Assembly (NCBI GenBank): GCA_023701285.1
Contig: JAMPXH010000024.1
Span: 1-42,708, forward strand
DNA length: 42,708 nt
Reading direction: 5' to 3'
Source of the DNA: Candidatus Didemnitutus sp.
Lineage (GTDB): Bacteria > Verrucomicrobiota > Verrucomicrobiia > Opitutales > Opitutaceae
A program made the position numbers and the translations under genes. Below, one piece after another: positions 508 to 41,076 of this stretch (its first letter is position 1; every line of letters begins with the position of its first letter). The notes under the pieces were generated by a model. It did not search any database, was not told where the DNA came from, and worked only from the letters and a program-made list of their open reading frames with translations.

Positions 508-585
508 GCGAGCACCCCGTTGCGTCCAAATCGGCCCCGTCGTGCCGAACATATCCGCAGAGGCCCAAACTCGCACCCGTTGCCC

Positions 586-3135: not shown

Positions 3136-3141
3136 AACCAC

Positions 3142-3227
3142 TTTCCCGAGGGGGCCGGACCGGGATACGGTTCGGATGTTTTCCGCTGTCCATCGCGAAT
3201 CGACGAAGGTCCGGCCCCTCTGGAAAT
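3142..3227. repeat. Long inverted repeat downstream of the first beta-repeat gene
   Basis: The arms at 3142-3161 and 3208-3227 are almost complementary. They contain a perfect 11-bp core, GGGGCCGGACC against GGTCCGGCCCC, separated by 46 nt. No T-tract follows, so this is not a classical rho-independent terminator. It could stabilise the mRNA 3' end or be a dispersed intergenic element. Confidence 0.5.
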
Positions 3228-3292
3228 ACTTTCTCTCCCACCACAGGGGACGAGAAGCAGGTGCAGAACGGATCGCCCCGCACGGCAGCGAT

Positions 3293-3358
3293 GCGTAGAA
3301 CTACGCCACGAAATGGCGAAGGCCATCCCTAGGACTCCATGTGCAGTCCGGGTATAGT
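3293..3358 (+). promoter_or_regulatory. Tandem-dyad operator and -10 box of the second beta-repeat gene
   Basis: A perfect dyad GCGTAGAACTACGC is at 3293-3306. A degenerate second copy, GGCGAAGGCCATCC (3315-3328), is centred 22 bp on. The -10 candidate TATAGT is at 3353-3358, 56 bp from the first dyad centre. The 5' leader would be about 30 nt. Confidence 0.65.
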
Positions 3359-3396
3359 CTGCGCGCGCCGATACCCCTTCGGTCACCTTTTCCCCT

Positions 3397-5601
3397 ATGA
3401 ACCGCACCTGCGCCTCCCGCCGCGGGCTGTCCGTTTGGACTGCCGCTTTTGCCGCCGCCGCTCTCGCCCTTCTTCCTTCCGTCACCGCCCAGACGCTCAA
3501 CTGGGTCGGCCCCGGCGGCAGCGGCAACTGGACCACCAGCACCAATTGGACTGACTCCACGCCCCTCAACACCGGCACCACATGGGATCTCGTGCTACAG
3601 ACCACGAGCGACTCTGCGCCCATGACCAGCATGCTCCCTGGCGGCAATTACACCATCCGCTCGCTCGCCATGGACAACACCGCCCAGGTCTTGAACAACA
3701 CCGCGAACGTCCTTCGCTTCGTCGCCACCACGGTCAGCAACAGCACGGCTATTCGCACGATCACCTTCGGCACGGCGGAGGTGTCGATCATCACGCTTAC
3801 GAACGGCATGAACCTGAACGTCAACGCCTCGACGCTGGGCACCAACCCCGGCACGCCCACGATGACGCTCAACCTCGGCTACACCGGCAACGGCACCATC
3901 AACATCGACGGCACCTCGCAACTCATCGTCTCCGGCGCCGGCGCCAGCATCGCCGGCACGGGAGGCCTGATCAAGACCGGCGAAGGCAGCATCCGCCTCT
4001 CCGCCAACCAAACCTACAGCGGCGGATTCACGCTGAATGCGGGCACCGTCGAGGCCACCGGCAACAGCACTTCCGTCGGCGTCCAAGGCGTCTTCGGCAC
4101 CGGTGTGCTCACCCTGAATGGCGGCACCATTATTTCCACCACCACCGGCAACCGCAACTTCACCAACCCGGTGCAGTTGAACAACGGCACCCTCACGCTC
4201 GGCTCCGCCACGACGGGCAGCATCATCATCTCCGATGCCGGCTCCCAGACCACCACCCTGTCGGGCAACACCACCTTGCAGATCGCCGTCGGCGCCAACG
4301 CCAATTGGGCGCAGCCGATCCACAGCCTCGGCTCCCTGACCAAGACCGGCGGCGGCACGCTCGGCCTCAACGGCACCAGCAGCACCAGCACCTATGAGGG
4401 CGGATTCGAACTGCTGGAAGGCAACGTGCGCGTCACGAGCTCGGGCAACAGCAGCGGCACCCTCTCCTCCTCGTTCGGCACCGGCACCCTCACCCTCTCC
4501 GGCGGCTCCCTCGCCAGCAGCAACAACAACGCCTCCAACAGCGGCAACCGCACCCTGTATAACCCGATCGCCCTGAACGGCACGATCAGCCTCGGTGAAC
4601 TCACCGCCAACAGCGCCATGACCGTTTCCACCGCTTGGGGCTCGGAAACGACCCTGTTGAAAAACAGCACCATCGTCACCCTCGCCAACTCGACCGCCAC
4701 CACCTTCAACTGGAACCAGAACATCACCGGCGGCTTCAGTCTGACGAAGGAAGGCGCCGCCACCCTGACCCTCAACGGCCTCAACTCCTACACCGGCGGC
4801 ACCACCGTCTCCGCCGGCACCCTCCGCGGCACCACCGACGGCCTCCAAGGCGCCATCACCAACAACGCCGCCCTTGTCTTCAGCCAGGAAACGGACGGCA
4901 CCTACGCCGGCGCGATCTCCGGCAGCGGCACCCTCGCCAAGACCGGCGCCGGCACCGTCACCCTCTCCGGCACCAACACCCACACCGGCCTCACCTCCCT
5001 CACCGAAGGCGGCCTCGCCATCAACGGCAGTCTCGCCGGCGCCCTCGACACCGCCGCCGGCACCGTCCTCTCCGGCGTGGGCACCATCCACGGCAACACC
5101 GCCATCTCCGGCGCGCATCAACCCGGCAACTCCCCCGGCACCCAGACCTTCGCGGGCGACCTGACCTACCACACCGGCGCCACCGTCGGCTGGGAACTCG
5201 CCACCAACTCCACCACCGCCGGTAACTTCGATCAGGTGATCGTCGGCGGCACCCTCGACTTCGCCGGCGCCACTCTCCTCAGCCTCGATTTCGCCGGCAC
5301 CGCCGTTGACTGGAGTCACTCCTTCTGGCTCGAGGACCACAGTTGGAAGCTTTACGACGCCGCCGCACTCGCCAACTCGGAGAACCTTTCGCTGACCATC
5401 GCCGACTGGCTCGACGCCCAAGGCGACCTCTTCTCCGCCATCCTCGCCGGCTCCACCTTCGGCCTCAGCGTCAACGGCAACGACATCTACCTGAACTACA
5501 CCGCCGCGATCCCCGAGCCCGCCACCACCGCTGCCCTGCTCGGCGCTGCCGCCCTCGCCCTCGCCGCCTGGCGCCGCCGCTCGCTCTCCCGTCGCGACTG
5601 A
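3397..5601 (+). CDS. PEP-CTERM protein with autotransporter-associated beta-strand repeats
   Basis: The 734-residue product has an N-terminal signal peptide (MNRTCASRRG followed by a long Ala/Leu core ending near VTAQ) and a Gly/Thr/Ser/Asn-rich repeat region. Units such as GGLIKTGEGSIRLS, NSYTGGTTVSAGTLRG and GTGTLTLSGG recur. The C-terminus is a textbook PEP-CTERM signal: IPEPATTAALLG, a hydrophobic helix and a basic WRRR end. Such tails are recognised by exosortase, which cuts and attaches the protein at the envelope, usually in bacteria that make an exopolysaccharide matrix. No exosortase is encoded here. The last ~150 residues before the tail are clearly related to those of the genes on either side, pointing to tandem duplication. 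No Shine-Dalgarno sequence is seen before the ATG. Exact function is unknown. Confidence 0.93.
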   Translation: MNRTCASRRGLSVWTAAFAAAALALLPSVTAQTLNWVGPGGSGNWTTSTNWTDSTPLNTGTTWDLVLQTTSDSAPMTSMLPGGNYTIRSLAMDNTAQVLNNTANVLRFVATTVSNSTAIRTITFGTAEVSIITLTNGMNLNVNASTLGTNPGTPTMTLNLGYTGNGTINIDGTSQLIVSGAGASIAGTGGLIKTGEGSIRLSANQTYSGGFTLNAGTVEATGNSTSVGVQGVFGTGVLTLNGGTIISTTTGNRNFTNPVQLNNGTLTLGSATTGSIIISDAGSQTTTLSGNTTLQIAVGANANWAQPIHSLGSLTKTGGGTLGLNGTSSTSTYEGGFELLEGNVRVTSSGNSSGTLSSSFGTGTLTLSGGSLASSNNNASNSGNRTLYNPIALNGTISLGELTANSAMTVSTAWGSETTLLKNSTIVTLANSTATTFNWNQNITGGFSLTKEGAATLTLNGLNSYTGGTTVSAGTLRGTTDGLQGAITNNAALVFSQETDGTYAGAISGSGTLAKTGAGTVTLSGTNTHTGLTSLTEGGLAINGSLAGALDTAAGTVLSGVGTIHGNTAISGAHQPGNSPGTQTFAGDLTYHTGATVGWELATNSTTAGNFDQVIVGGTLDFAGATLLSLDFAGTAVDWSHSFWLEDHSWKLYDAAALANSENLSLTIADWLDAQGDLFSAILAGSTFGLSVNGNDIYLNYTAAIPEPATTAALLGAAALALAAWRRRSLSRRD

Positions 5602-5626
5602 CCCCGCAGAATCACCTCCACTCATC

Positions 5627-5655
5627 GGCGGACCGTGGCACGGTCCGCCTTTTTT
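5627..5655 (+). terminator. Rho-independent terminator
   Basis: A 9-bp perfect stem GGCGGACCG / CGGTCCGCC with a 5-nt loop is followed by six T residues. It lies 26 nt after the stop of the second beta-repeat gene. The same stem sequence reappears in the terminator at 9469-9496. Confidence 0.9.
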
Positions 5656-5746
5656 GTGCCCGCGCCACCATGCCCGCGCGAAAACGCGTTCAAAACTCAG
5701 CAGCGTCCTGTGTGCGGACAGTAGGATGAAGCCCGACATCCTCCCT

Positions 5747-5812
5747 GCGTAGAACTACGCCATCGCAAACGTAGGCCTGTCACTAGGGGGAAATCCCGGG
5801 GGCCCCTATAAT
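5747..5812 (+). promoter_or_regulatory. Tandem-dyad operator and -10 box of the third beta-repeat gene
   Basis: A perfect dyad GCGTAGAACTACGC is at 5747-5760. A second copy, ACGTAGGCCTGTCA (5769-5782), is centred 22 bp downstream and keeps the CGTAG half-site. A consensus TATAAT at 5807-5812 lies 56 bp from the first dyad centre. Confidence 0.7.
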
Positions 5813-5875
5813 AAGCACACGGCAATCAACCTGTCGCGCCAAGCGTCCTCCCGCTCGGCCTCCCCTCTACCCCTC

Positions 5876-8314
5876 ATGAATATCTCCCGCTTCCGCGCTC
5901 TGCGCGGACTCTCGCTTGGTATTGTCGCAGCACTCGCCGGCAGTCTCTCCGCGCAGACGCTCAATTGGACTTCAGGCTCGGGTAATGTGCTCACGAACTC
6001 AGCCAACTGGGGCGGCACTGCGCCCAATTCCACCCACACATTGACGTTCAACAACGTCACCAGCGGCAACGCCAATGTCACCCTCGCCGGCGGCTCGCTC
6101 TCGATCAACAGCATGGCGTTCAACAATACTGCCATGCGCGTCTCTGCCGCCCTCGGCACGAACCTCGGCAATGGCGTCATCACTTTCAATAACGCGATCA
6201 CGCTCATCACCGCCTCGAACAGCGCGAACGTGAATTTCACCTCGGTGAACACGACGAGCACCAACGTCACCGTGCCGACATTGACGATCAACCTGAACTA
6301 CACCGGCGCCGGCACCATCAACGTCGATGCCACATCTCTGGTAAATATCTCCGGCAACACCAACAACAGTTTCGCCACCCTGACCGGCACCGGCGGGCTG
6401 ATCAAAACCGGCGCCGGTATGCTGCGGCTCGGCAACAACCACACCTACAGCGGTGGGTTCGAGTTGCAGAGCGGCTCCGTGGAAGTGACCGCCAATACCA
6501 CCGGATCCAGCAGCGCCTTCGGCACCGGCACCCTCACTCTATCCGGCGGCACACTCTCCTCCAACAGCACGGCCAACCGCACCATCGAAAATAGCACCCG
6601 TTTCAACGGCACCGTCACCCTCGGCAGCGCCACCAACACCGGCCTCCTGATCGTCCAAGCCGGCACCGCCACCCTCCTCTCCGACTCGCACCTCGTCACC
6701 GCCAGCAACGTCAATCTGAACCAGTCTCTCTCCGGCGCGTTCAAGCTCACCAAATCAGGCACCGGCAACCTCGCCCTCAATTCGAGCATGGTCTCGAGCA
6801 CTTACTCCGGCGGCTTCGAACTCGTCTCCGGCAACGTGCTCACCTCCAACTCCACGGTCGCCAGCGGCGGCATCCTCACCAACGGCGCCTTCGGCACTGG
6901 CACGCTGACCCTCTCCGGCGGCACCATCCTCAGCACCGGCACGAACCGCACGATCCACAACAGCATCACGCTGAACGGCACCGTCGCGATGTATACCAAC
7001 AACTCGACCCCGGTGACCCACTTCATCTCCGCCCTCGGTGGCGGCACCACCACGGTCGCCGCGGACTCGAACCTCAACGTCGGCGGCGACAACGCCGGCG
7101 TCACCCTCTCCTGGCAGCAGGTCATCTCCGGCTCCGGCAATCTCACCAAGACGGGCGCCGGCACCCTCAGCATCACCGATTCGAACCCCAACTTCACCGG
7201 CAACCTCTCCATCCTCGGCGGCACCGTCTCCGTCGACGCCCCCGGCAACCTCGGCGCCAACACCCTCAGCCGCACCACCATCATCGACAACGCCACCCTT
7301 CGCTTCACCGGCACCACCGCATCCGGCAACAACCGCACCTACTCCCTCGGCGCCAACGGCGCCACCTTCGACGTCACCTCCAGCGGCGTCTCCATCAACG
7401 GCGCCATCATGGACTACGCGGACCAGTCCGGCTCCCTCACCAAGACCGGCTCCGGCACCCTCACCCTCAACGCCACCAACAGCTACACCGGCGGCACCAC
7501 CGTCTCCGCCGGCACCTTGCAAGCCACCTCCGCCACCCTGCCCGGCAATGTGGTGAACAACGCCAGCCTCATCTTCGCCCAAGACAGCGATGGCACCTTT
7601 GCCGGCGACATCACCGGCACGGGCACGGTGACCAAATCGGGCACCGGCGTGCTCGCGCTCACCGGCACCCACGACTACTCCGGATTGACCACCGTTTCAG
7701 GAGGCGGACTCAAAGTCGAAGGCTCGCTCGCGGGTGCACTGTCGATCGAAAGCGGTGGCACACTCTCTGGTTCGGGCACCATCACAGGCGCCACCTCCAT
7801 CGCCGGCACCCATAGCCCCGGCAGTTCCCCCGGCATCCAGTCCTTCGGCGACAACCTCACCTACCAGGCCGATGCCACCGTCAACTGGGAGCTCTCCGCC
7901 AACACCGCCACCCAGGGCGACCCCACCGCCGTCTACGACCAGATCAACGTCACCGGCACGCTCGATTTCGCCGGAGCCACCTCGCTCGCCCTCTCCTTCA
8001 ACGGCGCCGGCTCCGGCGTGAATTGGAACGACGCCTTCTGGGACGCCAACCGCAGCTGGAAGATCTACGACACCGCCAGTGTCTCCAATTTCGGCAACCT
8101 CAGCCTCGTCACCAGCAATTGGGCCGACGGCTCCGGCAACCTCTTCGACACGGTCCTCGCCGGCGCCGGCTTCTCCCTCGCGCAGGTCGGCAACGACATC
8201 TTCCTGAACTACGCCGCCGCCCCCATCCCCGAGCCCGCCACCGCCGCCGCCCTCCTCGGCGCCGCCATCCTCGCACTCGCTCTCCAGCGCCGCCACCGGG
8301 CACCACGCCCGTAA
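5876..8314 (+). CDS. PEP-CTERM protein with autotransporter-associated beta-strand repeats
   Basis: This is the third tandem paralogue, 812 residues. It has a signal peptide (MNISRFRALRG, hydrophobic core, cleavage near LSAQ). Many beta-strand repeat units follow, for example GGLIKTGAGMLRLG, GAFKLTKSGTGNLAL, NLTKTGAGTLSI and NSYTGGTTVSAGTL. The PEP-CTERM tail is IPEPATAAALLG, a hydrophobic helix and a basic end (QRRHRAPRP). It has more repeats than the second paralogue and an extra central block around residues 380-520. The likely role is a surface or extracellular matrix protein anchored by exosortase. The start ATG follows a pyrimidine-rich leader without a Shine-Dalgarno sequence. Confidence 0.93.
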   Translation: MNISRFRALRGLSLGIVAALAGSLSAQTLNWTSGSGNVLTNSANWGGTAPNSTHTLTFNNVTSGNANVTLAGGSLSINSMAFNNTAMRVSAALGTNLGNGVITFNNAITLITASNSANVNFTSVNTTSTNVTVPTLTINLNYTGAGTINVDATSLVNISGNTNNSFATLTGTGGLIKTGAGMLRLGNNHTYSGGFELQSGSVEVTANTTGSSSAFGTGTLTLSGGTLSSNSTANRTIENSTRFNGTVTLGSATNTGLLIVQAGTATLLSDSHLVTASNVNLNQSLSGAFKLTKSGTGNLALNSSMVSSTYSGGFELVSGNVLTSNSTVASGGILTNGAFGTGTLTLSGGTILSTGTNRTIHNSITLNGTVAMYTNNSTPVTHFISALGGGTTTVAADSNLNVGGDNAGVTLSWQQVISGSGNLTKTGAGTLSITDSNPNFTGNLSILGGTVSVDAPGNLGANTLSRTTIIDNATLRFTGTTASGNNRTYSLGANGATFDVTSSGVSINGAIMDYADQSGSLTKTGSGTLTLNATNSYTGGTTVSAGTLQATSATLPGNVVNNASLIFAQDSDGTFAGDITGTGTVTKSGTGVLALTGTHDYSGLTTVSGGGLKVEGSLAGALSIESGGTLSGSGTITGATSIAGTHSPGSSPGIQSFGDNLTYQADATVNWELSANTATQGDPTAVYDQINVTGTLDFAGATSLALSFNGAGSGVNWNDAFWDANRSWKIYDTASVSNFGNLSLVTSNWADGSGNLFDTVLAGAGFSLAQVGNDIFLNYAAAPIPEPATAAALLGAAILALALQRRHRAPRP

Positions 8315-9590: not shown

Positions 9591-9640
9591 CGCATACGTA
9601 GGCCTGCCCCATTGTCCGAAACGCCTGATTGTGGGAATCT
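9591..9640 (+). promoter_or_regulatory. Possible promoter region of the FGase-like operon
   Basis: The 308-bp gap between the preceding PEP-CTERM gene and the TTG start at 9746 holds the terminator and this region. ACGTAGGCCTG (9596-9606) is identical to the second operator site of the third beta-repeat gene (5769-5779). At the equivalent distance lies only a weak -10 match, GAATCT (9635-9640), and no first dyad is visible. Co-regulation with the PEP-CTERM genes is possible but not shown. I see nothing else in the gap. Confidence 0.25.
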
Positions 9641-9745
9641 TTCGCCTTGCGATATCCGGCTCCGTGCCGGCATCGCACCGCAGCGCGCCTGAGGACGAAC
9701 CCGACCGGAGCCCGCGGTGAGCAGCCCCTTGTCCCTCCCCTTCAC

Positions 9746-10741
9746 TTGACCTCCCTTCCGCTTCGCCGGATCGCCCGACCGTTCGTTCGCGTCATCACCT
9801 GCCTCCTGCTGATCGTCGCCAGCGGAGCCTCTGCGTCAGCGCAGACGAAGACGCTGAAACCCGGCACGGCCTACATCGATCCGGATAAATACGTCGAGTT
9901 CCAGCCGGGCGCGCTGCCCATCGTGCTGACTTCGCCACACGGCGGCCGCAGCAAACCCAACAAGATCGCCGACCGCACCAAGGGCGTGCTCGGCGCCGAC
10001 ACCAATACCCAGGAACTCACGCGCGCCATCCAAGCCGAGTTCATCCGTCGCACCGGCCTGCCCGCGCACACCGTCATCAGCCTCCTCCACCGCAGCAAGC
10101 TCGACCCCAATCGCGAGATCGTCGAGGCCGCCCAAGGCGACCCCGAAGCCGAGAAGGCCTGGCACCTCTTTCACAACAGCATCAAGGCCGCGTTGCGCAC
10201 CGCGGTGCAGACCCACGGCTTCGCCTTCCTCATCGATATCCACGGCCACGGCCACGAAATCCAGCGCCTCGAACTCGGCTACAGCATCGATGGCGGACGC
10301 TTCAACCAGACCGACGCGGAACTCGATCGCGACAACCTCGGCCCCGCCAGCACCCTCAACGACCTCATGGCCAGCGGACGCGCCTCGTCGTTCGCCCAAC
10401 TCATGCGCGGCCCCGACAGCCTCGGCGCACTGCTCGAGGAGCGCGGCTTCCGCTCCGTGCCCGGCCCGCGCGACCCCGGCCCCAAACGCTTTCCCTACTT
10501 CAACGGCGGCTACATCTCCCGCACCTACGCCCGCGACGTGCCCGGCGTCGACGGCGTGCAGATCGAGTCGCATCTCCGCGGCGTCCGCGCGACCCCGGAA
10601 GACCGCCGGCAATTCGCGCAGGCGCTCGTCGACACCATGATCGTCTTCCTCGAACGTCATTACCGTTACTCGATCGTTCCCGCCAATTTCACCCCGGCAC
10701 CGGGCGCCCCAGCCCCCGTCCAAGCCTCCACCCAGCCATGA
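9746..10741 (+). CDS. Secreted N-formylglutamate amidohydrolase-like protein
   Basis: The family (FGase) hydrolyses N-formyl-glutamate or similar N-acyl amino acids with a zinc ion. Visible family motifs are SPHGG, GADTNTQELTRA, HRSKLDPNRE and LIDIHGHGHEIQRLELGY; the His and Asp residues in these are the expected metal and catalytic positions. The protein has a signal peptide (basic LRRIARPFVR, hydrophobic CLLLIVASG, cleavage near ASAQ), so it acts outside the cytoplasm, whereas classical FGases are cytoplasmic. I chose the TTG at 9746 because it starts just before the signal peptide; an upstream in-frame ATG at 9629 would add 39 residues without membrane character. The stop overlaps the next start by 4 bp (ATGA), so the genes are co-translated. 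The substrate is unknown; cell-wall or peptide-derived acyl amino acids are possible. 331 residues from the TTG start. Confidence 0.85.
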   Translation: MTSLPLRRIARPFVRVITCLLLIVASGASASAQTKTLKPGTAYIDPDKYVEFQPGALPIVLTSPHGGRSKPNKIADRTKGVLGADTNTQELTRAIQAEFIRRTGLPAHTVISLLHRSKLDPNREIVEAAQGDPEAEKAWHLFHNSIKAALRTAVQTHGFAFLIDIHGHGHEIQRLELGYSIDGGRFNQTDAELDRDNLGPASTLNDLMASGRASSFAQLMRGPDSLGALLEERGFRSVPGPRDPGPKRFPYFNGGYISRTYARDVPGVDGVQIESHLRGVRATPEDRRQFAQALVDTMIVFLERHYRYSIVPANFTPAPGAPAPVQASTQP

Positions 10742-11451: not shown

Positions 11452-14160
11452 ATGCGTCTGCGCCTCTCCGCCTTCCTCATCCTGCTCTGCCTCGTCCCGG
11501 CGGTCCGCGCGCAACCCTACGTGCCCGGAGAGACCTACTTCGGCACCAACAGCTACGTCGAGTATCAGCCCGGCGACACCCCCATCATCATCACGGCGCC
11601 GCACGGCGGCACCGTTTCGCCGAGCACCATCAGCTTCGTCACGGACGGTGGCCAAACCTACTCGATTCGCACCAACGGCACCTACAACGGAGTCACTTAC
11701 ACGGACATCGTCACGGGCACCGACACCAACACACAGGATCTCGCGCGGCGCATGGCCGCGGAGATTTTCGACCGCACCGGCAAGCGCGCGCATTTGATCA
11801 TCTCCCGCCTGCACCGCAGCAAGCTCGACCCTAATCGCGACCTCCCTGAAGCCGCGCTGGGCAACACGATTTCGGAGCGCGCGTGGCGCGAATATCACGA
11901 TTTCATCCGCGCCGCCCGCGTCGCGGCGGAAGCAGCCCACGGATTCGGCTTCGTCGTCGATGTGCACGGCCACGGGCACACCATCCAGCGCCTCGAACTC
12001 GGCTACAACTACGATGCCGAACTCGATCAGACCGACACGGCCTTGAACCACCCCGGCTACGCGCTCAAGGGCACGATTCACACCCTGTCGCTGCAGCGGC
12101 CCGGTTTGCCGTTCCCCACGTTGCTCCGCGGTGCCGGCAGCTTGGGCGACCTCTTCAACCGCCGCAATTTCCCCTCGTGGCCGAGTCCGGAGTTTCCCAC
12201 GCCCGGAGCAGCAGATTTCTTCGACGGCGGCTACACGGTGCAGGAACACAGCTGCATCGTCGACAACGGCCAGGTCAACGGCGTGCAGATCGAATGCAAC
12301 ATGACCGGCGTGCGCGATACGGAGTCCAATCGCGCGGACTTCGCCACCGCGTTCGCGCGCGTGATGCATATTTTTCTCTACAATCATTACGGCTACCTGC
12401 TCGGCGCGCAGTCCCTCGCGCGATTCGATCCTCCCGCCAGCACCACCCTCCGGCGCGGCGGCCCGCCCGTCACCCTCACCGCCACTCGCACCGGCGACTT
12501 GTCGCTCTCCAGTTCGCTCGCCCTCAGTTTCGGCGGCGACGCCATCTCCGGCACCGATTACACGGCGTCGCACACGTCTCTCTCGTTCGCCGCCAACGTG
12601 GCCACGGCGAGCCTGACCATCACACCCGCAGCCGCGGCGAATACCGGCGGCGATCGCGTCCTCACCGTGGCGTTTACGCCGTCGGTGACACAAACCGCCG
12701 ATACGACCCCGTTGCGCTTCACCATCGAGGACGGCCTCAGCCAGACGGTGCGCGCGGCGTTTCTTGCCCCGCAACTGTCCGAAGGCGCCGGTAGCGTCAC
12801 CTTGCGCCTCACCCGCACCAGCACGAGCGGCAGTCCCACGGTGCCTCTCACGTGGGGCGGCACCGCTCTGCGCGAATCCGACTATTACGGCGCACCCGAC
12901 TCGGTGCAATTTCCTGCCGGCGTCGCCACGCGCGACGTGCTGATCTCGCTGGTCGATGACGGTCGGGCCGAGCCCAACAAGACCATCGTGGTCAACGCCG
13001 TGGCCGGCTCAGGTTACCTGCTCGGAGCGCCCGCGTCGGCGCAACTCGAACTCATCGACGACGACCGCCCGAGCCAGCTTGTGGCCTGGCTGCGCGGTGA
13101 CTTGGCCAACAACGTCGCGGCCGACTCGTCCGGCCAGCAACGCCACGCCACGACCCTGCCCGCCGACAGCGCGATGGCGACCGGCCCCGGCAATACCACC
13201 GTCAGCAGCCAACCCGCCTTCACCTTCGACGGCGTGGACGACACCATCGTGCTGCCACGCTTCGCGCCCCAATCCGCGAGCGGCGAGATCACGCTCGCCT
13301 TTTTCTTCCGCCTCGAAGCCCACCCGCTCGGCGCGGTCACCAATCACACGTTGCTGAACTACGGCTCGCCGCGCGGAGCGGCCGGCACGCTGCAGATTTA
13401 TCCCGCCAGCAGCTCCACGCTTCGCGCCAACCTCGGCGGGATCAATCTGGACGTCGGCTCGCCCCCGTCGAATTGGCAGGATGGCGCGTGGCGCCACTAC
13501 GCGCTCAGCCTGGGCGCCAACGGGGAGGCGCGCGTGTATGTCGACGGCGTCTTGCGCCGCACGGCGTCCGTCGCCAGCGGATTGCTCAACGGCCAACTGC
13601 TGGAAAATCAGCTCTTCTGGCTCGGCTGGCGCGCGCTGGCCGGCGGCGGCTCGCTCTCGACGTCCTCGTTCATGAAAGGCGGCCTGCGCGACTTCCGCGT
13701 CTATCGCCGCGCGCTCGCGCAGCCTGAAATCGTGGCCCTCGCCAATAACGTGCAGACTTACGCCGCATGGCTCGCCCAGAACAATCTGCCGGCCAACCTC
13801 GCCGGAGCCAACGATGCGGATACGGATGGTTTCCCGGCGCTCGTCGAATACGGCCTCGGCGCCCGCCCCGCGGTCGCCGACCTGCCGCCCCGCTACCGCG
13901 TCGAAGCGCAAAATTCACGTCTCGCACTCACGTTCCTCCGCGACACCACCGCCACCGATCTCACGTGGACGATCGAAGCCTCGACCGACCTCGGCACGTG
14001 GCAGGCGCTCGCGACCCGCACCGGCGCCGCCTCGTCATGGACAATCAATGCCGCCGGCACCACCGCGACCGAGGATAACGGCTACGTCGTCGTCACCGAC
14101 TCCGTGACCGTCGGCGCGCAAACCGGCCGTTTTCTCCGCCTCCGCGTCAACGCCCCTTAA
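11452..14160 (+). CDS. Large secreted FGase-like protein with Calx-beta and LamG-like modules
   Basis: This 902-residue protein starts with a signal peptide (MRLRLSAFLILLCLVP, cleavage near VRAQ). Residues about 20-315 are an N-formylglutamate-amidohydrolase-like domain, paralogous to the one at 9746-10741: APHGG, GTDTNTQDLARR, HRSKLDPNRD and VVDVHGHGHTIQRLELGY are all kept. Two Calx-beta-like modules follow (about 325-420 and 430-525; FGGDAISGTDYTASHTSLSF and WGGTALRESDYYGAPDSVQF show the pattern). A LamG/concanavalin-like domain spans about 535-770 (WLRGDLANNVAADSSG, FTFDGVDDTIVLP, RVYVDGVLRR, FRVYRRAL). The tail holds NDADTDGFPALVEYGLGARP and a WTIEASTDLGTW segment, related to the tail of the gene at 586-3135. 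An FGase-like enzyme carrying extracellular adhesion modules is unusual; it may be a surface-displayed hydrolase. There is no PEP-CTERM tail. Confidence 0.88.
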   Translation: MRLRLSAFLILLCLVPAVRAQPYVPGETYFGTNSYVEYQPGDTPIIITAPHGGTVSPSTISFVTDGGQTYSIRTNGTYNGVTYTDIVTGTDTNTQDLARRMAAEIFDRTGKRAHLIISRLHRSKLDPNRDLPEAALGNTISERAWREYHDFIRAARVAAEAAHGFGFVVDVHGHGHTIQRLELGYNYDAELDQTDTALNHPGYALKGTIHTLSLQRPGLPFPTLLRGAGSLGDLFNRRNFPSWPSPEFPTPGAADFFDGGYTVQEHSCIVDNGQVNGVQIECNMTGVRDTESNRADFATAFARVMHIFLYNHYGYLLGAQSLARFDPPASTTLRRGGPPVTLTATRTGDLSLSSSLALSFGGDAISGTDYTASHTSLSFAANVATASLTITPAAAANTGGDRVLTVAFTPSVTQTADTTPLRFTIEDGLSQTVRAAFLAPQLSEGAGSVTLRLTRTSTSGSPTVPLTWGGTALRESDYYGAPDSVQFPAGVATRDVLISLVDDGRAEPNKTIVVNAVAGSGYLLGAPASAQLELIDDDRPSQLVAWLRGDLANNVAADSSGQQRHATTLPADSAMATGPGNTTVSSQPAFTFDGVDDTIVLPRFAPQSASGEITLAFFFRLEAHPLGAVTNHTLLNYGSPRGAAGTLQIYPASSSTLRANLGGINLDVGSPPSNWQDGAWRHYALSLGANGEARVYVDGVLRRTASVASGLLNGQLLENQLFWLGWRALAGGGSLSTSSFMKGGLRDFRVYRRALAQPEIVALANNVQTYAAWLAQNNLPANLAGANDADTDGFPALVEYGLGARPAVADLPPRYRVEAQNSRLALTFLRDTTATDLTWTIEASTDLGTWQALATRTGAASSWTINAAGTTATEDNGYVVVTDSVTVGAQTGRFLRLRVNAP

Positions 14161-34748: not shown

Positions 34749-36101
34749 ATGCCTGCCCCGCGCCTACACTCACTCGCCCTGCTTTTCTTCGCCCTGCTCT
34801 GCGGCTCAGCCCAAGCCGCGCCCGTCACCGCCTTGGTCGGCGGAAGACTCATCGATGGCTGGGGCGGCGCACCCGTCAACGACAGCGTCATCCTCATCGA
34901 AGGCGAGCGCATCCAAGCCGTCGGCACCCGTGACACCGTCACGATCCCGGCCGATGCACGGATCGTCGATTGCCGCGGGATGTCCGTGCTCCCGGGCCTC
35001 TGGGACATGCACGTCCATACGATGCTGCTCGGCCACTCGGACTACACCCACTGGGACAAAACCTACCCGAAGCGCTTCGAGACCGAGATCATGCCCGCCG
35101 CCGCGCAGCAACTCCTGCTGGCCGGTGTCACGAGTGCCCGCGATTTGGGCGCACCACTCGAGGCGAGCATCAACGTCCGGGAGCGCATCAAGCGCGGTGA
35201 GATCCCCGGCCCCACTCTCTACGTCTCCGGTCCCTTCATCCAGCATGAGCCCTACCCCGGGACCGAGGATTTCCGCTGGGGCGTCGACAGCGTCGCGGAC
35301 GCGCGAGAAAAGATCCGCCGTCTGGCCGCCGCCGGCGTCGATGTCGTCAAGCTGATCGATCAAGACCAGATGACCTTCGAGGAGGTGCAGGCCGTCGTCG
35401 ATGAAGCGCACCAGCATGGACTGCCCGTCGTCGCCCACTCCCATCGACCCGACGAGATCCGCATCGGCCTCAAAGCCGGCGTCGACTGCTTCGAACACAC
35501 CGGCCTCGCCATGGCGCCGGATTACCCCGAGGACATCCTCGAGCTGCTGCAGGAGCGCACCGGCAAGATGTCGCTCGGCCCGCTCTTCTGGTGCCCGACG
35601 ATCGAGGGCTTCTTCAATTACGAGGACAACGTGCGCAATCCCATGCACATCGAGGACACCGGCTGGCAATTCGGCGTCCCCGCCGACATCGTTGCCGACA
35701 TCCAGCGGTCCCTGAAGCACCCCGGCTGGCTCGCCTACTATCAGATCACGCCGCTCCGCGCGCAGACCTCCGCGAAGAAATTCCAACAACTGCGCCAATC
35801 CGGCGCCGTGCTGCTGATCGGCACTGACAGCGGCATCCCGATGAAATTCCACAACCAGTCCACATGGCGCGAACTCGACATCTGGGTGAACAAGCTCGGC
35901 ATGGATCCGATGCAGACCCTCCGCGCCGCCACCTACTGGCCCGCCGTCGCCATGAAGGTGGAGCGCGACTACGGCACCATTTCACCGGGCAAGATGGCCG
36001 ATATCATTGCCGTCAAGGGCGACGTCCTGCGCTACATCAATCTGCTGCAACGCGTCGACCTCGTCGTGAAACACGGCCGGATCGTGAAGCTGGGCTCCTG
36101 A
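34749..36101 (+). CDS. Secreted metal-dependent amidohydrolase
   Basis: The 450-residue protein has a signal peptide (MPAPRLHSLALLFFALLCGS, cleavage near AQAA). The amidohydrolase barrel carries the metal-binding motifs DMHVHT (HxH), VDVVKLI (probable bridging Lys), VVAHSH, CFEHTGL and IGTDSGIP (Asp). The C-terminal KMADIIAVKGDVLR...VVKHGRIV is typical of imidazolonepropionase-like and prolidase-like enzymes. Being exported, it may cleave peptides or related cyclic amides outside the cytoplasm; the substrate cannot be told from sequence. It lies 75 bp after the kinase gene and is convergent with the sulfatase-like gene. Confidence 0.92.
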   Translation: MPAPRLHSLALLFFALLCGSAQAAPVTALVGGRLIDGWGGAPVNDSVILIEGERIQAVGTRDTVTIPADARIVDCRGMSVLPGLWDMHVHTMLLGHSDYTHWDKTYPKRFETEIMPAAAQQLLLAGVTSARDLGAPLEASINVRERIKRGEIPGPTLYVSGPFIQHEPYPGTEDFRWGVDSVADAREKIRRLAAAGVDVVKLIDQDQMTFEEVQAVVDEAHQHGLPVVAHSHRPDEIRIGLKAGVDCFEHTGLAMAPDYPEDILELLQERTGKMSLGPLFWCPTIEGFFNYEDNVRNPMHIEDTGWQFGVPADIVADIQRSLKHPGWLAYYQITPLRAQTSAKKFQQLRQSGAVLLIGTDSGIPMKFHNQSTWRELDIWVNKLGMDPMQTLRAATYWPAVAMKVERDYGTISPGKMADIIAVKGDVLRYINLLQRVDLVVKHGRIVKLGS

Positions 36102-36109
36102 GCGCCGGC

Positions 36110-37345
36110 TCACAGCCACTGCCGCCACTCGCGCAACTCCCCCGACCTCGCCGGATCCTCGGCGAGGTTTCTCATTTCCAGCGGATCGTCCGCCAGGTCG
36201 AAGAACAGCCACGGCGTCTCGCGCCCGTCCGGTCCGGTGTGCAGCACGAGCTTATGCCGCGCCGTGCGGAATCCCCGCCACGCATGCGGACACTGCAACG
36301 GGATCTCCGTCGGCGCGGGCATGCTGATCGCCGCGCTGTCGCGCTTGCAGTGCCACTCATGCCCCTCCGCCCACGCCACCGCCATGTGCGGCAGGTCGAC
36401 CAGACTCACCGGCGAGTCGTCCTTGCGCCCGCGGTTCTGCGCCCGCAGACCGCGGATCAGCAGCGGCACGCGCACGCTCTCTTCATGCGGCCACGCCTTG
36501 CGGAACAGCCCGTGCGCACCATGCATGTCGCCGTGCACTGACGTGAAGACCACGATCGTGCCGGCGAGATCGATCTCCGAGAGCAGGCGGCCGATCGCGC
36601 GATCCGTCGCCTCGATGTGCGCGTAGTAGCCGGCCAGTTCGTCCCGCGCCTGGCGCTCGACCTCACCGCCGCGCGGCACGTTGGCGCGCAACTGCAGCTC
36701 CTTGCCCGCCGGCTCGTGCACATGCGGCACAGGGGCGTGATAAGGCGGATGCGGCGCCTCCAGGCTCACCACCACGAAGCAGGGGCGCGTGCCGTCCGTG
36801 TTGCGGGCCGCGGTCTCGCGCAGCCAGTGGCCGGCCCGCGTGCACAGCACGTCGGCTTGATAACCTTTGAACTGCGCCGGCTCGGGCAGGCGCGTGCCGT
36901 GCAGCCACGGATCGTTGAGCAGGAACCCGCCTTCGAATCCCTCCCAGAACGCAAAGCCACCGCGCTCCGCCGCCGGCACGATCTGGCGCGCGTGCGCCTC
37001 GCCGACGAAAGGCACGTCCCGCGCGCGCGCGCCCAGATGCCATTTGCCGAAAAAACCCGTGACGTAGCCGCGATCGCCAAGCGCATGCGCCACCGTGCGC
37101 GCCGTCGCGGGCAGCGGGTCCCAGTAGTCGCGCACGCCGTTCTCTGGACACAGCCGGCCGGTCAACAACGCCGCGCGCGCCTGCGGCCCCAGCGGATGCG
37201 GCGTGACGGCCTGCCGGAAATCCACCGCCTCGCTGGCCAGGCCATCCAGCCACGGCGTGCGTGCATTCGCATCGCCGGCGTAGCCGCAGGCCATCGCCCG
37301 CCACTGCGTCGTCACGATCCAGAGAATGTTCGGTCGCCTGCTCAC
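36110..37345 (-). CDS. Sulfatase-family protein lacking catalytic residues (probable pseudoenzyme)
   Basis: The fold is that of the sulfatase/alkaline phosphatase superfamily: RRPNILWIV at the start, RTPWLDGLASEAVDF, ARAALLTGR, FGKWHLG, and HEESVRVPLLIRG. The catalytic set is eroded. The formylglycine motif C/S-x-P-x-R is LGPQAR (Leu52) with no Cys or Ser nearby. The first metal-binding acidic residues, usually DDQ or TDQ, are TTQ (12-14). The second set, usually SDHGD, is SVHGD (Val270). The frame is otherwise intact over 411 residues. The GTG at the complement of 37343-37345 is the natural start. No signal peptide is seen, whereas most sulfatases are exported. It may have become a binding or regulatory protein, or use another chemistry. 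Confidence 0.85.
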   Translation of the reverse strand: MSRRPNILWIVTTQWRAMACGYAGDANARTPWLDGLASEAVDFRQAVTPHPLGPQARAALLTGRLCPENGVRDYWDPLPATARTVAHALGDRGYVTGFFGKWHLGARARDVPFVGEAHARQIVPAAERGGFAFWEGFEGGFLLNDPWLHGTRLPEPAQFKGYQADVLCTRAGHWLRETAARNTDGTRPCFVVVSLEAPHPPYHAPVPHVHEPAGKELQLRANVPRGGEVERQARDELAGYYAHIEATDRAIGRLLSEIDLAGTIVVFTSVHGDMHGAHGLFRKAWPHEESVRVPLLIRGLRAQNRGRKDDSPVSLVDLPHMAVAWAEGHEWHCKRDSAAISMPAPTEIPLQCPHAWRGFRTARHKLVLHTGPDGRETPWLFFDLADDPLEMRNLAEDPARSGELREWRQWL

Positions 37346-37426: not shown

Positions 37427-37454
37427 GATGAAAAACGACGGCGTCCAGCGCCGC

Positions 37455-38051
37455 TCAACGCAAGCCGACCGGCGGCCCGAGCACTTCGCGCAACACGAAG
37501 GCGCGGCGCAGGGCAACCGGGTCGCGCAGATCGTCGAGCAGAGCGCCGCGCCGTTGCTGGCGCTGGCCCGCTTCCGGAGCGACCGTGCTGGCCTCAAAAG
37601 CCGCGCGGCGCACCGCGGAGGCCTTCATCTCCTCCACTTGCCGGAGGCGGTCCGCCAAGGCAGCCTGCTGCTCGAGGATTTCCGCCGCCCGCTGGGCATC
37701 CAAGCGCGGTTGCGCCTGGGCCGCGGGTGAGGCCGGCTCCAACCGAACTTCACGGATCAGCGGAGGCGGCTCCTCATAGGCGGCCGGCTCGGGCGCCAAC
37801 TCCGGTCCGGGCACGCCACCGGTCTCGCCGCCGCGCTGGCGGTCGGCGATCTTGCGGCGGATCTCCTCGCGAATCTGGCGCGTGCGCTCGGCGAGCTCCG
37901 GATCCTCGAACTCGTATTCCTTCGGCGGCGCCTCTTCCGGCGCCGCTTCGGGGTTCTTCTTGCTCCGGATCGCCTGGAACAGCTGCGCCAGCACGCCGCC
38001 GATGATCAGCAGCGTGAAGAGATTATCGAGCGCCCATTGGATGAGCTTCAT
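37455..38051 (-). CDS. Small membrane protein with coiled coil, unknown function
   Basis: The 198-residue protein has one N-terminal membrane helix (LFTLLIIGGVLAQLFQAI), then a charged region rich in Pro, Glu, Arg and Ala. Stretches such as PELAERTRQIREEIRRKIAD and the segment about 118-150 may form coiled coils. I do not recognise the family. It starts 3 bp after the floA stop, so it belongs to the same operon and may be a partner of FloA or NfeD in the membrane. Confidence 0.85.
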   Translation of the reverse strand: MKLIQWALDNLFTLLIIGGVLAQLFQAIRSKKNPEAAPEEAPPKEYEFEDPELAERTRQIREEIRRKIADRQRGGETGGVPGPELAPEPAAYEEPPPLIREVRLEPASPAAQAQPRLDAQRAAEILEQQAALADRLRQVEEMKASAVRRAAFEASTVAPEAGQRQQRRGALLDDLRDPVALRRAFVLREVLGPPVGLR

Positions 38052-38054
38052 GGC

Positions 38055-39059
38055 TCACTTCTTGCCACCGTCAGGATGGGCGATGGAGCCGCGCATGGCC
38101 GTGTCGGCCTGCACGTTTTCCATCTTGTAGTAATCCATCACGCCTAGACGGCCGGCGCGGAAGGCCTCGGCCATCGCCATCGGCACCTGGGCCTGGGCCT
38201 CGACGACCTTCGCCTGCATCTCCTGCACGCGAGCCTTCATTTCCTGCTCAAGCGCGACGGCAGCCGCGCGGCGGATTTCCGCCTGCGCCTGCGCCATGTT
38301 CTTGTTCGCCTCGGCCTGGGCTTCCTGGAGCTTGGCGCCGACATTCTCGCCGACGTCCACATCCGCGATGTCGATCGAAAGGATCTCGAAGGCCGTGCCG
38401 ACGTCGAGGCCGCGCTGGAGCACGACCTTTGAAATGCTGTCCGGCGACTCGAGCACGACCTTGTAGGTCTCGGCCGAGCCGATGGTGGTCACGATGCCTT
38501 CGCCCACGCGGGCGATGATCGTGTCCTCCTTCGCGCCGCCAACGAAGCGATCAAGGTTCGTGCGCACGGTGACGCGCGCCTTCACCTTTACCTGGATGCC
38601 GTCCTTCGCGACACCGTCGATGGTGGTGCGACCGCCCTCGGGATTGGGGCAGTCGATGACCTTCGGGTCGACGGAGGTGCGCACGGCCTCGACGACGCTC
38701 TTGCCCGAGCCCTTCGTGGCAAGGTCGATGGCGCAGGCGCGGTTCCAGTTGAGTTCGATGCCGGCCTTCTCCGCGGCGATGAGTGCCTGCACGGTCGGGA
38801 TGACGTTGCCGCCGGCGAGGAAGTGGGCTTCGATCTCGTCGACCGAGATGTCGATGCCGGCCTTGCGCGCCGTGACGCGGGCGTCGGTCACCAGCGCATA
38901 CGGCACCTGGCGCAAACGCATGGCCAGGAGGTTCAGCATGCCCACGGGAGCTCCGGCGAGACGCGCACGCAGCCACACGCTGAAGAACGAGATGACAATG
39001 CCGAAAATAATCAGGGCGATTACACCGGCGACGATAAATCCAACGAGGGTTAGGTTCAT
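38055..39059 (-). CDS. floA: Flotillin-like membrane scaffold protein FloA
   Basis: FloA organises membrane microdomains. The 334-residue product has the usual N-terminal hairpin anchor ([20 protein letters not shown]), an SPFH-type domain ([40 protein letters not shown]) and a long Ala/Glu-rich C-terminal helix ([18 protein letters not shown] and on). The length matches Bacillus FloA. Its ATG overlaps the stop of the short nfeD by 4 bp. The pairing of floA with nfeD genes is widely conserved. Confidence 0.96.
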
Positions 39060-39523
39060 GATTTGGAAACGATGAGACGGAAATTATCGAGGCCGGTGAC
39101 CTTCACGGCGGTGCCCTTCGGCAGCAATCCGCTCTGGGACGCCGCTTCGTAGGACTTGCCGTCGATCTGGACCAGGCCGGAAGGAGCCAGCGTCGTGAGC
39201 GTCTCGCCGCTGCGACCGACGACATCCCCGGCGCGCGCCGGCGGTGGCTGGCTGGTGGCGGCAATGGTGCGCTCGAGGAACAGCCGCTTGCCGAACGCGG
39301 TGCGCGGCAGCACGAAAAGTTCGAAATAAAGCATCAGGCCGATGAGCACCAGCGCCAGCGCGGTGGCGATGCCACCGCCGTTCACGCCAAATTCGGCGAA
39401 CGCGACACCACACCCGGCGAGCATGAGCAGCGCGCCCAACAGCCCGAGCACGCCGCCTGGGATGAAGACCTCGAAGAACAGCAGCACGAGGCCGATGGCG
39501 AAGAGCAGGATGATACCGGTCAT
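39056..39523 (-). CDS. Short NfeD-family membrane protein
   Basis: The 155-residue protein has two to three helices ([53 protein letters not shown]) and a C-terminal OB-fold-like domain with [20 protein letters not shown], the NfeD signature of added-value lipid-raft partners. The ATG at the complement of 39521-39523 overlaps the stop of the long nfeD by 4 bp. It lacks the protease domain of its neighbour. It likely partners with FloA. Confidence 0.93.
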
Positions 39524-41076
39524 GAGGATTTCCTTTCCACGAGCAGGCCGAATGCGGCGCGACGCGTCACCACCACGGGCACGCCGGCGGGGATGTGCCC
39601 CAAAGCGGATTGCGCGGCATAGCGCCGGCCACCCACTTCGACTTCGCCGCTCGGGAACATGCCGGTGAGCGTGATGCCCTCGGCGCCGATCAGCGTATCC
39701 GGCGCAGCTTCGCCGCGGACGTCCGCGGCGCGCCCCTGCGACTGCGCATCGATGGCGGTCGAGAGCACCAAACGATCCCAGAACCAAGTCTTCGGCAGGT
39801 AGCGCAGCAACAGCACCGCAAGCACCGCCGTGATGATCAGGGCGAGACCGAGGTTCACCGCCGGTTGGAGGAAAAGATCACTCGAGAACGCGATCGGTTG
39901 ATCCGGCCAGATGTCAGCCATGGCCCAGAGCAGCGAGACGAGCATCAGCGCCACGCCCGTGAGCGCGACGAACACCACGCCCGGAAAGAAGAGCAGTTCC
40001 ACGCCGAGCAGCAGCAGGCCGACCGCGAAGAGCACCGCCGGCTCCTGTCCCGAGAGGCCGGCAACGTAGTGCCCGAAGAAGACCACCGCAAGCAGGCTCA
40101 GCCCGGTCACGCCCGGCCAGCCGAAGCCCGGCGTCTTGAATTCGATGAAGAGCAGCAGCATGCCGAGGCCCATCAGCACCGGCGCGAACGTCGTCAGGTA
40201 TTGCGCGAGCGATTCCGACCACGTGACGCGGAATTGCCGGATCTCGTAGCCGCCCTCGCCGTATTTTTTCGCCAGCAACTGTTCCACGCTGTCCGCGATC
40301 CCATTCGCCAGCAGCGGCTCGGGCGGATCGCCGTAGGGCGCGATGGCACGCTTGGCGGAGACCGTCAGCAGCTCGCCCTTAGGCGAAATGACCTCGTCGC
40401 CGATCTTCAGCTCGAAATCGGCGTTCATCATCGCCTTCAACACCTCCGCCCGCCGGGGCGTCGGGCTGGCCGAGAGCGCCTCGGCCTTGGCGGCGATGTA
40501 GCTCGTCATCTTCCGCTTCAACGCCTCGGGCGCGTCCTGTCCGGTGCCGAGGATCAGCTCCGCCGCGCCCATGACGCCGGTGGGGGCGAAATAAATCTCA
40601 TCGGTGATCATCGCGATGATCGCACCGGCCGAACCCGCCTCGGTGTTCACGTAGGTCACGGTTTCGCCGGGGAATTTCTGCAGCGCCTCCATGATCTCGA
40701 GCGTCGTGCCGGCATCGCCGCCCGGCGTCTTCATGTCCAGCAAGACGACGTCGGCCTTCTGCTCGATCGCCTCCTTCAACCCGCGGCGCAGGATATAGAG
40801 CGTGGGTTGCGCGATCTGGTCCTGCACCGGGATGACATAGGCGACCGCCTTGCGGTCGCGCTTCGGCCGCGCCGCCGCCTCGGGCAAAATGGCCGCGCTC
40901 GCCGCCGGCGCAGCCGCATCCGCTTTTGCTTCCGCCTCGGCCTGGACCGGAGCCTCGGCGGCCTCCGCCGGCAACGTCGCAGGCGCCAGCGCCGGCGCAG
41001 GAACGACGGATTCGTCGGCGTGCACCGGGATCATCACCAGCGAGGCCAGCAGCCAGCAGAGGGAGCGAAGATTCAC
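39520..41076 (-). CDS. Long NfeD-family protein with ClpP-type serine protease domain
   Basis: The 518-residue protein has a signal peptide (MNLRSLCWLLASLVMIPVHA), an Ala/Glu/Pro-rich linker (about 25-70), and a ClpP/SppA-like protease domain (about 75-270) with the nucleophile Ser149 in EAGSAGAIIAM and a likely Lys partner around 187-197 (KRKMTSYIAAK). Four or five helices follow (about 295-435), then a C-terminal OB-fold domain with GAEGITLTGMFPSGEVEVGG. This is the long NfeD form whose archaeal homologue cleaves the C-terminus of a stomatin. It is the first gene of a four-gene operon with short NfeD, FloA and a small membrane protein. Confidence 0.94.
   Translation of the reverse strand: MNLRSLCWLLASLVMIPVHADESVVPAPALAPATLPAEAAEAPVQAEAEAKADAAAPAASAAILPEAAARPKRDRKAVAYVIPVQDQIAQPTLYILRRGLKEAIEQKADVVLLDMKTPGGDAGTTLEIMEALQKFPGETVTYVNTEAGSAGAIIAMITDEIYFAPTGVMGAAELILGTGQDAPEALKRKMTSYIAAKAEALSASPTPRRAEVLKAMMNADFELKIGDEVISPKGELLTVSAKRAIAPYGDPPEPLLANGIADSVEQLLAKKYGEGGYEIRQFRVTWSESLAQYLTTFAPVLMGLGMLLLFIEFKTPGFGWPGVTGLSLLAVVFFGHYVAGLSGQEPAVLFAVGLLLLGVELLFFPGVVFVALTGVALMLVSLLWAMADIWPDQPIAFSSDLFLQPAVNLGLALIITAVLAVLLLRYLPKTWFWDRLVLSTAIDAQSQGRAADVRGEAAPDTLIGAEGITLTGMFPSGEVEVGGRRYAAQSALGHIPAGVPVVVTRRAAFGLLVERKSS

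Follow-up and report, generated by a model that had tools for sequence, protein, structure and literature searches.

The locus and its product

The window, a stretch of 42,708 nucleotides from Candidatus Didemnitutus sp. (assembly GCA_023701285.1, contig JAMPXH010000024.1), was found to contain the following features:

520..8314: genes for three consecutive long, repeat-rich, secreted-looking proteins, the second and third with PEP-CTERM-like tails (by eye)
9629..10741 and 11452..14160: genes for neighbouring proteins that share LHRSKLDPNR and HGHGH (by eye) and look like a duplicated hydrolase domain
34749..36101: amidohydrolase gene (PF01979), between the putative pseudo-sulfatase gene and a histidine kinase gene
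36110..37345, minus strand: putative pseudo-sulfatase gene, 411 aa, GTG start, TGA stop, probably without signal peptide
37438..37454: terminator-like hairpin
37455..41076: block of nfeD (518 aa), a short nfeD, floA and a gene for a 198-aa protein

The frame of the gene at 36110-37345 was intact with no internal stops, and its 411-aa product matched the profile PF00884 (Sulfatase) with 112.7 bits (E 2.8e-32, cut-off 25), which bears out the original prediction of an intact sulfatase-family gene. The structural model for which that prediction had called was obtained with AlphaFold from the protein together with 67 orthologues (mean pLDDT 94.2, pTM 0.94). The top solved structure for this model was 2qzu, with Z 42.3 over 397 residues, rmsd 2.7 and 26% identity. 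Among the matches listed (50 solved structures) Z ranged from 42.3 to 32.7, and the titles named nearly always a sulfatase, a sulfamidase or a phosphonate monoester hydrolase. An in-frame stop was found at most 12 codons upstream of the aligned start in 48/143 orthologues (L052, in which a contig end truncates the gene, was excluded from this count); such a stop leaves no space for a signal peptide, which makes a cytosolic location of the protein most likely. This pattern was also present in 8/32 Cys-type relatives, so the stop before the start is not specific to the clade of the window protein.

Residues of the former active site

In S1 sulfatases, the formylglycine residue was reported to lie four residues before an Arg shared by 99% of 4058 sequences; the precursor of formylglycine was found to be Cys in 78.9% and Ser in 21.1% (PMC5066984). 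The same source gives Asp13, Asp14, Asp317 and Asn318 as the metal ligands of AtsA, with Asp317 acting both as ligand and as activating Asp, Arg55, Lys113, His211 and Lys375 as residues of the pocket, and His115 as the elimination base (PMC5066984). The conserved Arg of the window protein is Arg57, and by the published pattern the formylglycine position is therefore Gly53 (PMC5066984). The codons that correspond to these positions, with two further clade-specific ones, are given below, where fractions without a label refer to copies of the family sample described in the following sections and the relatives are the 32 Cys-bearing sequences (only partly readable copies: G014, G068, G070, G079 and G111).

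37307..37309, minus strand: Thr13 codon, replaces the first metal-ligand Asp; T 109, S 2 of 111; relatives D 31, E 1 of 32
37304..37306, minus strand: Gln14 codon, kept, 111/111
37196..37198, minus strand: His50 codon, clade 143/143 vs relatives 0/32
37187..37189, minus strand: Gly53 codon, formylglycine position; G 111, A 1 of 112
37175..37177, minus strand: Arg57 codon, kept pocket residue, 111/112, the exception being the broken G111 copy
37043..37045, minus strand: Lys101 codon, kept pocket residue, 112/112
37037..37039, minus strand: His103 codon, catalytic base position; H 81, G 18, Q 13 of 112
36749..36751, minus strand: His199 codon, kept pocket residue, 111/111
36536..36538, minus strand: Val270 codon, replaces the second metal-ligand Asp; V 101, A 9, T 1, M 1 of 112; relatives D 32/32
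36533..36535, minus strand: His271 codon, kept, 112/112
36497..36499, minus strand: Lys283 codon, kept pocket residue, 112/112
36290..36292, minus strand: Cys352 codon, clade 143/144 vs relatives 0/32

The Cys or Ser that S1 sulfatases require at the formylglycine position was found in 0/112 readable family copies, the place being held by Gly53 in the window protein. The places of AtsA Asp13 and Asp317 were held by Thr13 and Val270, and Asp was found in 0/111 copies at the first and in 0/112 at the second. The places of AtsA Asp14 and Asn318 were held by Gln14 and His271, and these two residues were also found in 25/32 and 27/32 of the Cys-bearing relatives, respectively. By the same register the pocket contained Arg57, Lys101, His103, His199 and Lys283; the AtsA-type residues R57, K101, H199 and K283 were thus present in the window protein and near-invariant across the family, followed by a position of the elimination base (AtsA His115) that was occupied by His103 in the window protein and by G or Q in 31/112 family copies.

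The claims of the original prediction on single residues were upheld to differing degrees. The replacement of the Asp of the SDHGD motif by Val270 stood in full (D in 0/112 family copies and in 32/32 relatives). The loss of the Cys/Ser was likewise upheld (0/112), but the residue at the formylglycine position is Gly53, and Leu52, which had been named, only adjoins it. The replacement of acidic ligands by a TTQ stretch held for Asp13, which has become Thr13, but not for Gln14, which is normal in the Cys-bearing relatives (25/32) and essential in the arylsulfatase EfAS (Q21, PMC12421950).

No Cys or Ser was found within residues 39-65 of the window protein, so no small shift of the alignment restores a catalytic residue. 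The alternative register that had been named as able to overturn the prediction was accordingly rejected, with none near and the Arg57 register in agreement with the published pattern (PMC5066984).

Comparison with known sulfatases

The Cys-type S1 enzymes L125-L131, which come from other Verrucomicrobiota and contain the motifs GDQHRAQ, C-P-x-R and SDHGD, were 34-37% identical to the window protein. They were found to share with it Gln14, Arg57, Lys101, His103, His199, His271 and Lys283, followed by an HGDMHG motif in L125-L130, but they retain Asp13, Cys53 and Asp270, of which the clade has none. Second matches inside the family reached 37-43% identity as calculated in a separate search, and the one that was read, that of genome G095 (L241), was of the Cys type. 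The best fold match, 2qzu, is the putative sulfatase YidJ of Bacteroides fragilis; its residues aligned with Thr13 and Gly53 of the window protein are Asp and Ser, respectively.

The Mn-dependent arylsulfatase EfAS of Enterococcus faecium, which was taken as structure 9koq from the entry title, was matched at the profile level with E 1.3e-37. The spacings of its D20-Q21, C61...R65, K110...H112 and D311-H312...K324 agree with those of the clade protein (PMC12421950). The pocket residues Q21, R65, K110, H112, H220, H312 and K324 of EfAS were all matched in the window protein, whereas D20, C61 and D311, which correspond by spacing and motif to positions 13, 53 and 270, were replaced (PMC12421950). 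In EfAS, Q21 was reported to be essential, and D20N, C61A and D311N were each reported to abolish the activity on all three substrates tested (PMC12421950). The scores for two narrower profiles lay below their cut-offs, with 82.7 bits against 850 for NF052527 (Mn-dependent arylsulfatase) and 118.4 bits against 433.45 for TIGR03417 (choline sulfatase).

In SulfAtlas, nine sequences of Lentisphaerae and Planctomycetes were called possibly inactive (PMC5066984). They resemble the clade as S1 homologues suspected of inactivity, but they have lost the conserved Arg, whereas the clade keeps Arg57, and the section of the source that deals with them reports no conservation throughout a lineage (PMC5066984).

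Distribution in Opitutaceae and limits of the clade

From the family Opitutaceae, taken in the broad sense, 120 evenly sampled genomes were searched at a threshold of E 1e-30, and matches were found in 115/120 genomes, 49/49 genera and 94/96 good genomes. The match of G095 was found to be a Cys-type sulfatase (one of the 114 loci read besides the window). The clade gene was therefore present in 114/120 genomes (113 fetched loci and the window) and in 93/96 good ones, with a copy in every one of the 49 sampled genera. The three good genomes of the 96 without a clade gene were G082 and G109, with no match, and G095, with its Cys-type match, so either the gene is dispensable in places or the assemblies miss it. 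A scan of the GTDB genome collection gave at least 71 clade members by motif (L001-L071) among the matches listed (79 of 568 relatives). The alignment with close homologues thus answered a check proposed with the original prediction, since the substitutions are fixed in the clade, and orthologues with normal residues, which would have spoken for simple decay, were not found at positions 13, 53 and 270 (0/111, 0/112 and 0/112, respectively). The same losses in all readable family copies are more than chance, and the clade is wider than a reading of the single sequence could show.

The copies of G052, G053 and G111 (L202, L203 and L254) were split over frames, for which decay and assembly error are indistinguishable from the sequence. 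A second match of clade strength was found in G033 (C73:3281-4471, 333.6 bits, 50% identity; this genome is 7% contaminated), and in G071 a fragment of 36 N-terminal residues, 86% identical to the query, precedes the full copy as a partial duplication (L097:3391-3498, minus strand).

A profile of the clade was run against 288 sampled genomes from the phylum and 132 from the order (at most 6 and at most 14 candidates scored per genome, respectively). It gave 538-708 bits for the clade genes inside the family and at most 294 bits both for genes outside the family and for second copies within it. With a second profile the lowest clade row scored 464.5 and the highest Cys-type row, that of G095, 306.9. 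In the 23 outside matches that were read (L125-L147), position 13 was D or E, position 53 was Cys and position 270 was D. Among 253 aligned rows, which include repeats, 221 were without all three residues (in one of these, 13 and 53 could not be read), followed by 32 rows with Cys53 and Asp270 and with Asp or Glu at 13; no row held an intermediate, mixed set.

In a tree of 144 distinct clade rows and the 32 Cys-bearing rows, the clade formed one branch, supported at 100, whose stem measured 1.19 changes per column; the tree was built by a quick method with SH-aLRT support only, and several of its outgroup branches are long. Score and the absence of the three residues had served to select the 144 clade rows, so the tree tests the unity of the clade and not the losses, for which the tally of the 111 or 112 readable family copies and the table of 253 rows are the only independent counts. 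The 32 Cys-bearing relatives are what the searches returned and not a balanced sample. A single loss before the family diversified would be the simplest account.

Selection and conserved residues

The dN/dS values (NG86) for 19 pairs, another of the checks proposed beforehand, ranged from 0.075 to 0.391 with no visible relaxation, the estimate being rough in the 2 of the 19 pairs with dS >1. The window gene and that of L055 gave a dN/dS of 0.084 (dN 0.025, dS 0.295), and six neighbouring genes of the same pair gave 0.038-0.110. The catalytic losses have thus become fixed in a clade of orthologues on which purifying selection acts, as is expected of a pseudoenzyme.

Among the 33 columns that are at least 95% conserved in the relatives, R57, K101 and K283 were conserved at 100% in the clade as well as in the relatives. 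From the same set D13, C53, P55 and D270 were wholly absent from the clade, and the clade was loose at T321 (15/144), L258 (45/144), N6 (98/143), T263 (103/144) and H103 (102/144). Fifteen residues were found in at least 99% of the clade and in at most 25% of the relatives, namely H50, G53, P67, Y74, D76, G140, F141, Q163, P200, E236, H243, F281, R282, W285 and C352, with Arg282 and Trp285 each in 144/144 clade rows. By these residue counts, the pocket seems to have been retained for binding and adapted to a different use.

Presence without other strong sulfatase-family matches

The clade gene was found to be the sole PF00884 match at 1e-15 in 14/79 good family genomes, belonging to 10 genera; these 14 also hold weaker PF00884 matches of at most 45.3 bits, several of them over the cut-off of 25, and one of the 14, G052, has the frame-split clade copy. 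The anaerobic maturase profile TIGR03942 was matched at 1e-30 in 27/79 good family genomes, and among the 14 sulfatase-poor ones 13 contained no such match, with a split match below the cut-off in G009. A strict catalytic-site pattern was absent from the central ORFs of at least 200 aa in 27/30 loci from the sulfatase-poor genomes, a scan without a positive control, and the remaining L278, L282 and L285 lay outside its ORF filter. A loose pattern gave two matches: at L263 in an ORF that overlaps in another frame, and at L280 in an ORF next to the one hit. With a sole strong match in 14 genomes and a near absence of matches to the anaerobic maturase, the gene is retained where little of its own family remains for it to help. 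The genome of the window was found to contain other sulfatases with the Cys motif (L081-L083) and one maturase over the cut-off.

Genomic neighbourhood

The neighbours of the gene differed between lineages, and so variable a context names no partner. The counts that follow are lower bounds, since the flanks extended to no more than about 5 kb and were often cut short by contig ends. A large hybrid histidine kinase was found downstream in 52/114 loci and was convergent in all 52, so there is no shared transcript and the kinase was rejected as a co-transcribed partner. A gene like that for the TamB/YhdP-type protein of the window was found downstream in 33/114 loci. An upstream pair on the same strand was found, with c3 (a membrane protein by eye) in 29/114 loci and c4 (a coiled-coil protein by eye) in 32/114, followed by a gap of 9-35 bases from c4 to the aligned start in six loci; the pair may form an old operon with the pseudo-sulfatase. 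The tested copies of c3 and c4 (L224:1941-5031) gave no Pfam match. Under looser clustering the histidine kinase, c3 and c4 were found in 56, 30 and 31 loci, respectively.

In the window and in L055, the gene comes after nfeD-nfeD-floA and the gene for the 198-aa protein, and in the window the hairpin at 37438-37454 separates this block from it, a weak signal with 3 such sites vs 1.2 (sd 1.4) in shuffles. A floA gene was found in 59/61 sampled family genomes, most of the 29 other floA loci that were read carry parts of the nfeD-floA block, and the block also precedes the gene in a distant Pelagicoccus-type genome (L061, L213). The FloA operon was not leaned on as a partner, since among the loci examined the block precedes the gene only in the window, L055 and L061/L213. 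The amidohydrolase of the window had no match in L055, where the other neighbours were 93-98% identical. In nine loci (L159, L163, L170, L198, L207, L213, L226, L235 and L253), the gene precedes a flagellar run (flgB, flgC, fliE, fliF and fliG type by eye), and in some of these it lies after a ferritin-like gene.

Interpretation

The reading of the protein as a pseudoenzyme, which the original prediction had coupled with a new role, is well supported by the fixed losses and by dN/dS, and the protein is almost certainly not a sulfatase; a different role is probable from the conservation. A pseudoenzyme of the formylglycine-sulfatase fold would have been founded once, before the family diversified, and then retained in nearly all of its genomes. 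With the nucleophile (53) and the acidic metal ligands (13, 270) lost and the elimination base (103) variable, the sulfatase reaction should not run. Arg57, Lys101, His199 and Lys283, with Gln14 and His271, which in active relatives bind the sulfate or phosphate group, are kept, and an anionic ligand (a sulfate or phosphate ester, or a free anion) would be bound and not cleaved. The bound state may be passed on to a partner, or the ligand may simply be held. That this putative cytosolic pseudoenzyme works by binding an anion without cleaving it is given an even chance, and the invariant pocket residues may instead serve the stability of the fold.

A scaffold or partner-binding protein, in which the fold is kept and the old pocket is irrelevant, would suit the 15 clade-fixed residues that are rare in the relatives, several of which may form a new surface; it has no obvious need for K101, H199 and K283 in all readable copies and for R57 in all but the broken one, and is judged rather unlikely. 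The pocket may also have been rebuilt for a new reaction without formylglycine or the old metal, for which His50 (143/143) or Cys352 (143/144), each 0/32 in the relatives, could be used and with which the retention of the entire fold (Z 42.3 to 2qzu) agrees. No member of the sulfatase fold is known to work without its metal ligands, and a new enzyme is held to be improbable. As a tentative and broader reading, a core protein of Opitutaceae is conceivable in which the sulfatase pocket, with the new His50, Arg282, Trp285 and Cys352, would have been rebuilt into either a metal-free enzyme or a sensor dedicated to an anionic metabolite; if so, the sulfatase fold would include a lineage with a function other than sulfatase activity that is important to an entire bacterial family.

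The sulfatases and the maturase in the genome of the window would permit a role in assisting or regulating active sulfatases or the enzyme that matures them, but this role is weakened by the genomes with no other strong sulfatase match, in which the clade gene is the only PF00884 match at 1e-15 (14/79) and 13 of which have no TIGR03942 match at 1e-30 (G009 split and below cut-off), and it is considered very unlikely. A decaying or mis-assembled sulfatase gene, as the frame-split copies of G052, G053 and G111 could suggest, is hardly credible and was refuted for the clade as a whole by the low dN/dS, the clade copy in each of the 49 genera and the same losses throughout, while single copies may be decaying. 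The preferred reading remains the pseudoenzyme that would bind an anion without turnover.

Among kinases and proteases, pseudoenzymes are a familiar phenomenon. In the literature searched (titles, abstract starts and passages of openly available journal papers), no description of a lineage-wide pseudo-sulfatase or of an inactive sulfatase clade was found. The clade gene scores well above the Pfam cut-off for sulfatases, so surveys of how Verrucomicrobiota use polysaccharides will probably include it among the sulfatases. The pocket predicts anion binding without turnover, which is testable on one purified protein. The putative pseudo-sulfatase is near-universal in the sampled family and is retained even where no other strong match to the sulfatase family exists.
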